Assembly (NCBI GenBank): GCA_028736075.1 | Contig: CP117875.1 | Coordinates: 3,410,001 to 3,474,000, forward strand | Source: Chryseobacterium sp. KACC 21268 | GTDB lineage: Bacteria; Bacteroidota; Bacteroidia; Flavobacteriales; Weeksellaceae | Direction: 5' to 3' | DNA: 64,000 bases | Shown: piece by piece, positions 28,877-32,510 of the stretch | How positions within the stretch are numbered: the first letter of the stretch is position 1 | How the letters are laid out: the number at the start of each line of letters is the position of its first letter | Program-made: the position numbers and the translations under genes | The notes under the pieces: generated by a model | The model's input: only the letters and a program-made list of their open reading frames with translations | The model's database searches: none | Told to the model about the DNA's origin: nothing

Positions 28877-28964
28877 CTATTTTTATAGTTAAAAGAAGTT
28901 AAAAACCATAACGAATTGATAATCAGCACATAAATAATTATTAAACTAAATATTGATTTTAGTC

Positions 28965-28994
28965 TTGTCTTGTAATGAAAAAGATGTATCTTTG
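28965..28994 (+). promoter_or_regulatory. Promoter of initiator tRNA copy 1
   Basis: TTG (28965-28967), 19 nt, then TATCTTTG (28987-28994). The mature tRNA starts only 4 nt after the box, so there is almost no 5' leader. Confidence 0.75.
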
Positions 28995-28997
28995 CAC

Positions 28998-29073
<76 letters not shown>

Positions 29074-29078
29074 AATCA

Positions 29079-29108
29079 AGAGAATCACAGTGTGGTTCTC
29101 TTTTTTTT
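29079..29108 (+). terminator. Terminator of initiator tRNA copy 1
   Basis: AGAGAATCAC-AGT-GTGGTTCTCT stem (one G-T pair) followed by eight T residues. Confidence 0.85.
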
Positions 29109-29234
29109 ATTTTATTTTGTTGACAAATTCGTTTACCTTTTGTCGTTTTTGGTAGACGAAATTTATTTTTCTGCAAAATTTGTCTCATTATTTTTCTATT
29201 CATTTTCATCAAAAAAATAAAATTACCAATTCCC

Positions 29235-29264
29235 TTGCCTCGTAATGAAAAAGCTGTATCTTTG
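29235..29264 (+). promoter_or_regulatory. Promoter of initiator tRNA copy 2
   Basis: TTG (29235-29237), 19 nt, TATCTTTG (29257-29264). The spacer shares TAATGAAAAAG with the first copy, so the promoter was duplicated with the tRNA. Confidence 0.75.
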
Positions 29265-29267
29265 CAC

Positions 29268-29343
<76 letters not shown>

Positions 29344-29348
29344 ACTTA

Positions 29349-29378
29349 AGAGAATCAATTTTTTGATTCTCTTTTTTT
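29349..29378 (+). terminator. Terminator of initiator tRNA copy 2
   Basis: AGAGAATCAA and TTGATTCTCT form a 10-bp perfect stem followed by T residues. Confidence 0.85.
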
Positions 29379-29390
29379 ATTTAAAATTCG

Positions 29391-29398
29391 TAAATTTG
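29391..29398 (+). promoter_or_regulatory. -7 box of the YciO/Sua5 gene
   Basis: TAAATTTG lies three bases before the chosen ATG at 29402, so transcription would begin at about the start codon (leaderless mRNA). Confidence 0.5.
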
Positions 29399-29401
29399 AT
29401 T

Positions 29402-30013
29402 ATGGCTAAAATCCTAAAAATATATCCGGAAAACCCACAGGAAAACCTTATCAACGAAGCGGTTAAGGTTTTGCAGAACGGTGGCGTTATCATCTACCCT
29501 TCCGATACGATCTACACAATCGGTTGTGATATTTACAATCACAAAGCGATGGAAAGGCTTGCCCAGATCAAAGGAATCAAACTGGATAAGCACAAGTTCT
29601 CTATCATTTGTAATGACCTAAGCCATCTTTCCGAATTTACAAAGCCGATAGAAACCGCAACTTTCAGATTTCTGAAAGCGCATTTGCCTGGGCCTTTCAC
29701 TTTCATTTTGGAAGCCAATAGAAATTTACCGACATCTTACAAAGGTCATAAAACCGTAGGAATTCGGGTTCCTGATCATATTGTTCCGCAAATGATTGTA
29801 GAAAAATTGGGTCATCCGATTGTTTCAACGACCATTCACGCTGATGATGAGATTTTGGAATATTCTACAGATCCGGAATTGATCGCCGAGAAATATGAAA
29901 AGTTGGTTGACCTCGTTATCGATTCTGGTTATGGTGACAACACCGCCTCCACAATCGTTGATTTGACTTCTGGCGAACCGGAAATCCTTAGACAAGGGAA
30001 AGGGATATTATAA
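29402..30013 (+). CDS. YciO/Sua5/YrdC-family protein (L-threonylcarbamoyladenylate synthase-like)
   Basis: The 203-aa protein has the Sua5/YrdC fold that binds double-stranded RNA and, in TsaC, makes threonylcarbamoyl-AMP for the t6A37 tRNA modification. Visible motifs are GGVIIYPSDTIYTIGCD, LPGPFTFIL, VGIRVPDH, HPIVSTTIHAD and the ending STIVDLTSGEPEILRQGKG. Its length without a Sua5 domain and the KxR-like active site fit the YciO/TsaC branch. YciO and TsaC differ in activity, so the assignment to t6A synthesis is tentative. The start at MAKILKIYP fits the family. Confidence 0.87.
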   Translation: MAKILKIYPENPQENLINEAVKVLQNGGVIIYPSDTIYTIGCDIYNHKAMERLAQIKGIKLDKHKFSIICNDLSHLSEFTKPIETATFRFLKAHLPGPFTFILEANRNLPTSYKGHKTVGIRVPDHIVPQMIVEKLGHPIVSTTIHADDEILEYSTDPELIAEKYEKLVDLVIDSGYGDNTASTIVDLTSGEPEILRQGKGIL

Positions 30014-30014
30014 A

Positions 30015-30041
30015 AGTCTTCGAGAGCCTCAGACTGACAAC
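30015..30041. repeat. GTCTTCGAG...ACTGACA repeat, intergenic copy
   Basis: AGTCTTCGAGAGCCTCAGAC plus TGACAA lies just after the YciO-like stop codon. Three related copies are found inside prmC (31388, 31429, 31726). The sequence from here to 30131 also contains TTCGAGATTCAAAG, another motif shared with the prmC insertion. Confidence 0.75.
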
Positions 30042-30131
30042 TTTGGAAAAGGCATTCTCTAATTCCAAGTTCGAGATTCAAAGTTTTGAGTGAAGGCTTT
30101 GAACATTAAATCATAAACTTTAAACTACTTA

Positions 30132-30893
30132 ATGAAATTCGTTACTTCTCCAGCAAAATTGATGAACATCGAAAATTCGACGGAATTTTTGAAATCTACA
30201 ACTCCGAAATTCATCAAGGATTCTGAATTTATCCAATCCCATTTGAAAGAGAAATCACCAAAATATCTTTCTGAATTGATGGAAATCTCTACCAAATTAG
30301 CTGATGAAAATTGGGAACGCAATCAGAAATGGAGCGCAAAACCTACGGCAAAAAATTCATCGCCGGCAATGTTTGCTTTCACAGGCGAAGTTTACCGAGG
30401 TTTGGATGCCAAAACTTTAGGCAAAGAAGCGGTAGAATATCTTCAGAAAAATTACAGGATCTTGTCTGGGCTTTATGGATTGTTGAAGCCGTCCGACAAA
30501 GTGATGTTGTACCGATTGGAAATGGGACGACCATTTAAATTTGATTCTTATAAAAACATCTACGAATTCTGGACTGAGAAAGTGACGGAACAACTGAATT
30601 CTGAACTAAAAAAAGGAGAATTGCTCATCAATCTCGCGAGTACAGAATATTTCAAAGTCATCGACAAAAAAGCGTTGAAGGCGAAAGTCATCGATTTTGA
30701 ATTCAAGCAAATACAGCCAGACGGAAAATTGAAAACCATTGTGGTCTACACGAAACACGCTCGTGGATTGGTTTTGCGTTTCTGCGCAGAAAAACAAGTC
30801 AAAACTTTGGATGAAATTAAAGCTTTCAATTACGAGAATTATTTGTTTGATGAAAAATTGTCGACCGAAACCAATTTGGTTTTTACGAGATAG
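30132..30893 (+). CDS. yaaA: Peroxide-stress protein YaaA
   Basis: The 253-aa protein belongs to the YaaA (DUF328/UPF0246) family, which in E. coli lowers intracellular free iron under hydrogen-peroxide stress and binds DNA. Characteristic segments include SPAKLMN at the start, PAMFAFTGEVYRGLDA, LSGLYGLLKPSDKVMLYRLE and the C-terminal KHARGLVLRFCAE. Length is as in E. coli. No OxyR site can be identified by eye. A terminator follows at 30932. Confidence 0.93.
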   Translation: MKFVTSPAKLMNIENSTEFLKSTTPKFIKDSEFIQSHLKEKSPKYLSELMEISTKLADENWERNQKWSAKPTAKNSSPAMFAFTGEVYRGLDAKTLGKEAVEYLQKNYRILSGLYGLLKPSDKVMLYRLEMGRPFKFDSYKNIYEFWTEKVTEQLNSELKKGELLINLASTEYFKVIDKKALKAKVIDFEFKQIQPDGKLKTIVVYTKHARGLVLRFCAEKQVKTLDEIKAFNYENYLFDEKLSTETNLVFTR

Positions 30894-30931
30894 AATTTTT
30901 CATCAAAAGATTATAAATCGCATATCAAATT

Positions 30932-30963
30932 AAAAGTCGCAAGTTATTTTGCGACTTTTTCGT
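30932..30963 (+). terminator. Terminator of yaaA
   Basis: AAAGTCGCA and TGCGACTTT form a stem followed by T residues. Confidence 0.8.
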
Positions 30964-31007
30964 TTTGTCAATCAATTAATTTTTGCGACTTTGCGACAAA
31001 TTCCATT

Positions 31008-32063
31008 ATGAAGCTTTCCGAAATCAAGATCCAATTTCAAGCAGAACTTTCTGAACTCTATTCCAAATCTGAGATTGAGGAATTGTTCTCGATTTTCTGT
31101 GAACACTATTTGGATTTGAATAAGATTGAATTGCGATATAGTTTGGAAAACAAATTATCAGAAAGCGATTCCAAAAAATTTTCTGGAGTTATTTGTGAAT
31201 TAAAAACTGGAAAACCATTTCAACAGATCCTTGGTGAAACGGAATTCTATGGAATGAAATTCTTTGTGAATGAACACGTTCTAATTCCAAGACCGGAAAC
31301 GGAGGAACTTTTGGAGTTGGCTATAAAAAAGATTCAAGATTCGAAATTCGAGATTCGAGATTCGAGATTTGAGATTCAAGGATTAAAAGTCTTCGAGTCC
31401 GCTCAGACTGACAATGTACAACTAGACAGGCTTCGAGAGCCTCAACCTGACAAAGTGGAATCAGAGCTAATTTTTAAGTCTCAAAGTGATAACAGTCACG
31501 ACAACAATAGCACAAACTCTAAAACACTCCACCGCTCCAAAACTGCAATAAAAATTCTCGACATCGGAACGGGAAGCGGAATTATTCCGATTGTTTTGAA
31601 GAAGTATTTTCCGGAAGCGGAAGTTTCAGCGATCGATATTTCGAATGATGCTTTGGAAGTGGCGAAAAGAAACGCGGAATTTCACAGGACAAAAATTAAT
31701 TTCATCCATCAAGATTATTTGAATAAAGTCTTTGAGTCCGCTGAGACTGACAGCGAGATCTATGATGTGATCATCAGCAATCCGCCATATATTGGCATTG
31801 AGGAAAATCCTGAAATCGAGAATTCTGTGAAAGGTTTTGAGCCAAATTTGGCGCTCTTCTCTCCTACTTCGGACGCTTTGATCTTCTACAAGAAAATTGC
31901 GAAAGATTGCAAAAAGCATTTGGCTGAAAATGGACTTTTGTTTTTGGAGATCAATCAGAAATTGGGGAAGGAAACTTTGGAATTGTATCAACAAGGTTTT
32001 TCCGAAGTTGAGCTTTTGAGAGATATTTCGGGGAATGATAGGATAATCTTTGGGAGAAAATAA
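31008..32063 (+). CDS. prmC: Release-factor N5-glutamine methyltransferase with an internal insertion
   Basis: PrmC (HemK) methylates the GGQ glutamine of release factors RF1/RF2. The N-terminal helical domain (about 1-100, ending VLIPRPETEELLELA) and the SAM-binding domain (DIGTGSGIIPI at about 185, NPPYIG at 258-263) are both intact. The protein is 351 aa, while E. coli PrmC is 277. The excess is a low-complexity stretch of about 70 residues (110-180) between the two domains, encoded by repeat sequences (see 31335-31547), and a short repeat-like VFESAETDSE at 241-250. The frame is open throughout, so the protein is probably functional with a longer linker. Confidence 0.93.
   Translation: MKLSEIKIQFQAELSELYSKSEIEELFSIFCEHYLDLNKIELRYSLENKLSESDSKKFSGVICELKTGKPFQQILGETEFYGMKFFVNEHVLIPRPETEELLELAIKKIQDSKFEIRDSRFEIQGLKVFESAQTDNVQLDRLREPQPDKVESELIFKSQSDNSHDNNSTNSKTLHRSKTAIKILDIGTGSGIIPIVLKKYFPEAEVSAIDISNDALEVAKRNAEFHRTKINFIHQDYLNKVFESAETDSEIYDVIISNPPYIGIEENPEIENSVKGFEPNLALFSPTSDALIFYKKIAKDCKKHLAENGLLFLEINQKLGKETLELYQQGFSEVELLRDISGNDRIIFGRK
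31335..31547 (+). repeat. Repeat-derived in-frame insertion within prmC
   Basis: The segment begins with short ATTCGAG/ATTTGAG units, then holds AGTCTTCGAGTCCGCTCAGA (31388 on) and CTTCGAGAGCCTCAACCTGA (31431 on), both kin of the intergenic repeat at 30015. A further copy, AGTCTTTGAGTCCGCTGAGA, is at 31726-31753. Confidence 0.8.
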
Positions 32064-32077
32064 TTAGTATTAATCTT

Positions 32078-32440
32078 ATGAGGCATTATCTCTTTATAGC
32101 CTTCGTATTAATATCTTGCAATAAAAAAGATACTATTGGCAATCTGGAATTCAAGTCTTGCAATGTTAGTTATCCCATTTATGCAAATGAAGAAAAATTT
32201 CTTTATGAAGGACATTCGGTTTCGAATGAATGGGAATTGGAGTCTGCAACATACGAATTAGCACTTTGTCTTTGTGAAGAATATCTAAAAAAACCTGATG
32301 CAGAAATCAAAGATAAAATACTGGAGATATATCACGCAGAAATGAAATATTATCAAATTGGATATCCTAAAAATTTAGATTTTGATCTGATCCTAAAAAA
32401 CAGGAAAGAAATCTTTGACCCAACGATTTTGGTCGATTAA
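32078..32440 (+). CDS. Small predicted lipoprotein of unknown function
   Basis: The 120-aa protein starts with a short hydrophobic segment and a lipobox-like Cys (MRHYLFIAFVLISC), so it is likely a lipoprotein. The remainder is soluble and mixed alpha/beta with Cys pairs (ALCLCEEYLKK). I recognise no family. It starts 15 nt after prmC on the same strand and may be cotranscribed. Its AT-rich composition resembles the hypothetical genes at 45.9-47.9 kb. Confidence 0.65.
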   Translation: MRHYLFIAFVLISCNKKDTIGNLEFKSCNVSYPIYANEEKFLYEGHSVSNEWELESATYELALCLCEEYLKKPDAEIKDKILEIYHAEMKYYQIGYPKNLDFDLILKNRKEIFDPTILVD

Positions 32441-32510
32441 TAGACATCAAATTTTTCAATCAGTTTAAAAAGGATTTTTTTTAAATTGTGGAAAGAATGA
32501 CTAAACCTCA

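Follow-up and report, generated by a model that had tools for sequence, protein, structure and literature searches.

REP-like palindromes in frame within PrmC and other proteins of Chryseobacterium sp. KACC 21268 and its relatives

The prmC gene of Chryseobacterium sp. KACC 21268 encodes segments that resemble a dispersed palindromic repeat, and the question raised by this locus is whether they are inserted copies of the repeat or part of the ancestral protein. The window analyzed here is a stretch of 64,000 nucleotides (contig CP117875.1, positions 3,410,001 to 3,474,000) of a 4.07 Mb single-contig genome (G000), and window coordinates are given on its forward (+) strand. The prmC reading frame (31008–32063) is open and encodes the peptide chain release factor N(5)-glutamine methyltransferase of 351 aa. 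Its identity was supported by TIGR03534 (231.3 bits against a cut-off of 199.1), by PrmC_N and MTS in Pfam, and by Foldseek, in which the best PDB fold match was 2b3t_A, E. coli PrmC with RF1.

An earlier note on this DNA had reported two repeat copies in the PrmC linker, one before the NPPY motif and one in intergenic DNA, and all four were located. A model of the repeat was built by aligning 30 copies from G000 and using the 20 distinct ones, four of them from the window. The linker copy at 31388–31413 has the GAGTCCGCTC core, encodes KVFESAQTD and is the top model match genome-wide (E = 9.8e-9); the copy at 31428–31452, with the GAGAGCCTC core, encodes RLREPQPD (E = 3.6e-5) and is of a related subtype that differs from it in sequence. 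The copy at 31727–31752 lies in the methyltransferase domain, before NPPY, and encodes KVFESAETD (E = 1.7e-6). All three are also among the source sequences of the model. The intergenic copy (30015–30039, E = 6.3e-7) starts 2 nt after the stop codon of a Sua5/YciO/YrdC-domain ORF (29363–30013). A 20-mer with up to 3 mismatches gave two matches in the window and none in 100 dinucleotide shuffles, and the three Rfam matches on 29500–32500 were all under their gathering scores. The linker is also encoded in part by a heptamer array (AGATTCG × 6.9, 31330–31377, Tandem Repeats Finder), which is absent from the linkers of most congeners, and by a low-complexity remainder (31453–31543) without a match to the model. 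Apart from these features, a 149-nt direct repeat (28964–29112 and 29234–29382, 90% identical, 270 nt apart) lies upstream of the Sua5-domain ORF.

The element is an imperfect palindrome of 24–26 bp in all 82 copies of the genome, and consists of a three-base arm, a CTTCGA...CTCAG core, the complementary arm and GACA; on the opposite strand, an unpaired TGTC tag precedes the hairpin. The GACA end is present in 72 of the 82 copies. The stem comprises 5 bp, a 2-nt bulge and 2 bp, which makes 7 bp in total or 8 in the GAG..CTC types, and the loop is 3, 4 or 6 nt depending on type. The first stem pair is A-T or G-T in 18 of the 20 aligned copies, and the second is G-C or C-G in 15. The arms covary (AGT/ACT, ACA/TGT, AGG/CCT and ATC/GAT), and they are fully Watson-Crick in 32/82 copies and match at two or more positions in 73/82, two out-of-register copies being left unassessed. 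The flanks past the arm are often A-rich, as judged by eye and uncounted. Stem covariation among the 20 distinct copies was 0.260, compared with a shuffled mean of 0.093 (sd 0.021; 0 of 500 shuffles as high) and at most 0.047 for slid controls, a score that is favored by the structure having been taken from the same copies. The number of double-change pairs in the stem was two, which 375 of the 500 shuffles matched, and the single-strand DNA folding energy of five copies was no better than that of shuffles (z −1.65 to +0.61). The case for a structured element rests on covariation and genome-wide repetition rather than on folding energy. With its covarying stem, unpaired TGTC tag and many copies, the element is REP-like.

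With the threshold set to E ≤ 0.05, the model finds 82 copies in the genome; relaxing it to E ≤ 5 gives 97. Copies often lie close together: 21 neighbors within 150 nt were observed, against 0.31 expected under random placement, and these comprise 11 inverted pairs with the tags facing each other, none inverted the other way, and 10 in the same direction. The element is not confined to this genome. Twenty-three congeneric genomes, its own included, hold at least 17 to 151 copies each, with up to 150 candidates scored per genome; we infer that they belong to Epilithonimonas from the names of the nearest proteins, some of which are labelled Chryseobacterium. In a sample of 80 genomes of the family, six of them of this genus, the element was present in 41, spanning 21 of 33 genera. 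The exact 26-mer occurs, among the matches listed, in records titled Chryseobacterium, Pedobacter, Draconibacterium, Ignavibacteriota and Cloacimonadota, and the occurrence of the same palindromes in different phyla may suggest transfer or strong constraint. CP053447.1 (L309, Ignavibacteriota) has four exact 26-bp copies in 8 kb. Of the 86 copies in 80 of at least 120 stretches with the exact 26-mer, six fall within ORFs of at least 150 aa; two of these ORFs are prmC, and the remaining four look doubtful.

Comparison of PrmC among relatives showed that both sites are empty in some congeners, which bears out the in-frame insertion that the earlier note had proposed. Of the 23 genomes, 10 lack an insert before NPPY and 13 have one. 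The distance between the motifs of this loop is 177 nt in nine empty alleles; in the filled ones it is 195 nt (11 alleles) or 192 nt (two alleles), and the loop of G006 was called empty by reading rather than from the motif distance. The segment is absent in all seven aligned loci of other genera of the family. Relative to the empty alleles, the net gain is 18 nt for an element of 26 nt, so that about 8 target bases are gone; the junction is our own parse, and no two alleles are otherwise identical. The linker is short (60–63 nt) in 9/23 congeners and longer in 14/23, and in the best 120 of 7794 PrmC homologues (E ≤ 1e-30), 118 of them measurable, it has 20–21 residues in 45 and 27–102 in 73. 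It is therefore not shared among close or distant homologues, and E. coli PrmC aligns without the linker excess and without the segment before NPPY. The earlier note had also ascribed about 70 extra linker residues to the dispersed repeat. The linker here is 249 nt against 63 nt, or 62 residues over the empty state; the two REPs do contribute, but their 51 nt account for only about 17 of the 62, while the remainder is divided between the AGATTCG array and other low-complexity DNA.

REP-derived sequence was recognized in PrmC of 18/23 congeners by eye and of 14/23 by the model (E ≤ 0.0023). The long linkers of homologues hold peptides of both REP subtypes, apparent other hairpins (VILNEVKRNEES, CHPELAEG) and tandem repeats. 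Inverted hairpin pairs also occur in the PrmC linker of two genomes from other genera (G025 and G033). The model E values of these hairpins are 4e-8 and 1.5e-6 in G025 and just 0.1 and 0.64 in G033, where the pair was recognized by eye; the genome-wide matches number 93 and 39, respectively.

We predicted the structure of PrmC by AlphaFold2 (45 sequences, mean pLDDT 77). Most of both domains was obtained with high confidence, and residues 116–177, which include the linker remainder, had pLDDT below 50. The second insert lies in a loop (residues 241–251, block mean pLDDT 61) with a short helix on one side and, on the other, the strand that runs into NPPY. In this predicted model, the two prmC sites are thus shown to be a very-low-confidence linker and a loop; since residues 262–283 are also below 50, regions outside the inserts share the low confidence.

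The earlier note had suggested looking for the repeat in other ORFs, and it is present in eight genes of the genome, prmC included. Eleven of the 82 copies lie in frame in these genes and 71 lie outside them: prmC has three, rsmE two, and thrC, murB, mvaD, an M3 peptidase, an FkbM-type methyltransferase and an anti-sigma-like ORF one each, the last having been judged by eye. This count excludes ORFs of 92–95 aa, the N-terminal positions 3838521 and 1978777, and a 229-aa ORF at 1971370. A decarboxylase-like ORF (L050) matches the core but has neither arms nor tag, and this match was rejected as chance.

Alleles were compared for prmC, thrC, rsmE, murB and mvaD. These five genes are shown to have both empty and filled alleles among the congeners, with the filled ones in frame. 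For thrC, 22 genomes were compared (G018 was unmatched): nine are empty (51 nt), eight carry a CTTCGACAAGCTCAG-like subtype (63 nt) and four a CTTCGACTCCGCTCAG-like type (75 or 84 nt), and in G009 (L172) a REP is nested in another REP, in frame, giving 87 nt. Apparent premature stops in thrC of G002 and G014 turned out to be the gene's own end, 1–2 residues before that of the query. For rsmE, 10 of 22 genomes are empty (66 nt) and 12 are longer (81 to 150 nt), 10 of the latter with REPs; G011 and G018 owe their long loop to other extra sequence. A REP is nested in an outer REP, with the coding frame kept, in rsmE of G005 (L183), G006 (L187) and G022, and probably also in that of G000 and G003. 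murB is empty in 20/22 genomes and filled in G000 and G015 (39 vs 45 residues), and mvaD carries a REP in 6/22. In place of some five residues in the solved chain 5l43, the M3 peptidase has about 31, and G104, of another genus, has an M3 peptidase of the same kind with a REP in the same loop. A partial ClpB of G033 and MnmE of G094 each hold a REP, and across the 41 loci of the family sample the element lies in an ORF of at least 150 aa in four. Besides REPs, tandem repeats of the (AGATTCG)n, CTCAAACT and CAACCATCAACC types also enter the PrmC, RsmE and MvaD loops of congeners, as if these coding loops evolved like intergenic DNA.

The history of the sites was followed on a tree of 2841 nt (947 codons) from three genes minus their inserts, in which 9 of 20 inner branches are weak and one gene is missing in each of G001, G006 and G018. 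The minimum number of state changes, given without a shuffled control, was 7 for the prmC loop, 6 for thrC and 7 for rsmE. The third-base identity of the insert before NPPY was 0.79, against 0.67 in the flanks, and 13 of 242 flank blocks were as high; the comparison used 10 of the 13 carriers, omitting G002 and G014 as shortened and G011 as degenerate. Since this synonymous divergence is ordinary, the prmC loop insert looks old and appears to evolve as protein. Homogenization by gene conversion had been considered for this insert, as the exact repeat is kept in several species, and was set aside because the synonymous comparison does not distinguish the insert from its flanks.

The explanation that we favor, with a probability of roughly 0.85, is that a small REP-like palindrome, dispersed in the family, occasionally lands in genes, where it is tolerated neutrally in flexible loops, and that the PrmC segments are copies of it. 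Most insertions that disrupted the reading frame or the protein fold would be lost, leaving the survivors in flexible loops; PrmC would keep its function, and the insert would then drift as ordinary protein. Because the length of the element, 25 or 26 bp, is not divisible by three, in-frame survivors need other bases to be gained or lost. The net gains of the simplest filled alleles are 12, 15, 18 and 24 nt, which means that some target bases are gone, and the longer alleles (thrC +33 and +36, several of rsmE) contain further sequence. An ancestral linker and loop with a chance resemblance to the repeat is extremely improbable: although the segment before NPPY is common to 13 congeners and evolves like ordinary protein, the site is empty in the other ten and in all seven loci of other genera, E. 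coli PrmC has neither segment, and the repeat also occurs in intergenic DNA and in seven other genes of the genome. That the inserts were selected for, either as a functional linker or as an mRNA or DNA hairpin acting in regulation or gyrase binding, seems quite unlikely to us. The same loops are filled across many species, the prmC loop insert looks old, and such roles exist for REPs outside genes, according to the accessible part of Di Nocera et al. 2013 (PMC3733652). However, nine of the 23 congeners do without the linker excess, PrmC of 5/23 has no REP-derived sequence by eye, linkers vary freely in the 73 homologues with 27 to 102 residues, and the insert regions have low predicted confidence. 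A further possibility, compatible with neutral insertion, is that the filled and empty scatter is mainly due to interspecies recombination of gene segments with few original insertions. In thrC, G000, G002 and G014 have extra residues around the REP in common, and the sequence of G003, the sister of G000, matches other empty alleles; murB is filled only in G000 and G015, which are far apart on the tree. Against this, different subtypes and nested copies at one spot in thrC and rsmE need several insertions despite transfer. Some of the scatter may be gene exchange rather than fresh insertion, and that exchange explains most of it is a serious proposal to which we give slightly less than even odds.

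No dedicated transposase was seen for the element; candidate mobilizers would be a trans-acting Y1 transposase or hairpin-driven copying while DNA is replicated or repaired. Movement as a non-autonomous REP by a Y1 transposase of the IS200/IS605 or RAYT type is consistent with the REP anatomy, the inverted paired copies and a PF01797 match in 21 of the 23 congeneric genomes. On the other hand, the two genomes without such a match, G005 and G016, have 94 and 60 copies; the model matches at 3 of 30 Y1 loci (of 56 matches; 98 kb), where about two are expected from the copy density of G000; and inspection of the prmC loop by eye revealed no conspicuous target duplication. Mobility of the IS200/IS605 type goes with an orientation bias relative to replication. 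The element has 40 copies in one orientation and 42 in the other, on a replichore estimate (96 stretches) that explains about 6% of the skew variance. The accessible text of PMC3733652 likewise describes CGTC-tagged REPs as without association to transposase genes, and we regard Y1-driven movement as doubtful, albeit worth keeping in view. The sole PF01797 match of G000 (a 153-aa ORF, L035:1396-1857, − strand; G000:C1:2580582-2580926) is flanked by a different hairpin, ACAGGTCGCTCCTACGGAGCTGGT, as judged by eye, which looks like the Y1 gene's own REP family. In murB, the empty allele of G017 has GAAGTGTTCAAT at the junction and the filled alleles have the same at the element's end; this one gene may hint at microhomology at the insertion junction. 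We tentatively raise one extension of the insertion reading, which we consider a minority possibility: certain loops of housekeeping proteins may be lasting landing pads, in which later REPs enter the hairpin loop of a resident one by a transposase-free, hairpin-driven process and so produce nested inserts of several families. This idea predicts the nested copies of thrC and rsmE, the PrmC-linker hairpins in three genera, and the M3-peptidase loop filled in two genera.

The element has part of the features of published CGTC/TGTC-tagged REPs and lacks others. As described in the accessible part of Di Nocera et al. (PMC3733652), the latter are palindromes of 20–40 bp that carry an unpaired tag at one end, for which TGTC is among the variants given, and an unpaired 3-bp tail, mostly CCA. 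The end tag (here TGTC), inverted dimers, intragenic copies and the lack of a linked transposase gene are common to both, and Bacteroidetes is among the phyla given there. In contrast, the published stem is 8–9 bp with a loop of 4–5, compared with 5+2 or 5+3 bp and a 2-nt bulge here; complementary A-T occupies its first and second positions, whereas the second position varies here; and head-to-head dimers predominate there with same-direction pairs negligible, whereas 10 of our 21 are in the same direction. The intragenic cases named in that portion of the text are from Proteobacteria, Rickettsia included, and from O. terrae (Verrucomicrobia), with none from Bacteroidetes. It also describes two Xanthomonas species in which REPs occupy roughly the same position in recB, and site re-use as such therefore has precedent. 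REP/REPIN systems with RAYT resemble the element in having a tag plus hairpin and inverted pairs; however, the tag of RAYT-associated REPs is GTAG rather than TGTC, and no RAYT-type gene is linked to the element here.

The earlier note had likened the insertions to the palindromic elements (RPEs) of Rickettsia. The resemblance holds as an analogy, since RPEs are also palindromes found in frame within conserved proteins, but not in size: RPEs are 105–146 bp in the accessible part of a review (PMC2229807), against 24–26 bp here, and the two were set apart by description, not by sequence. By this comparison, the element is probably not a Rickettsia RPE, though RPE-like in behavior, and closer to the CGTC-tagged REPs, with which the short RPE-4 and RPE-6 are equated in the text available from PMC3733652. 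The same portion of the review describes a guanylate kinase that carries an RPE and yet is translated and active, although its affinity for the substrate is changed. Intragenic REPs and RPEs are thus a known kind of event. Our literature search, mostly of non-subscription sources, found no account of repeat insertion in PrmC and no intragenic REPs reported for Chryseobacterium or Epilithonimonas; as far as these searches reached, the host group, the variant structure, the re-use of a loop by different subtypes and the nesting are new.

These results add a genus of Bacteroidota to the hosts in which palindromic repeats invade proteins, a phenomenon known best from Rickettsia; the invaded enzymes serve translation, the cell wall, and isoprenoid and amino-acid synthesis. 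For annotation, peptides such as VFDSAQTD and LREPQPD are repeat-derived rather than conserved motifs. The empty, filled, subtype-swapped and nested alleles in 23 congeners provide a series for studying movement without an evident transposase, and the same series bears on how new protein segments arise from non-coding DNA.
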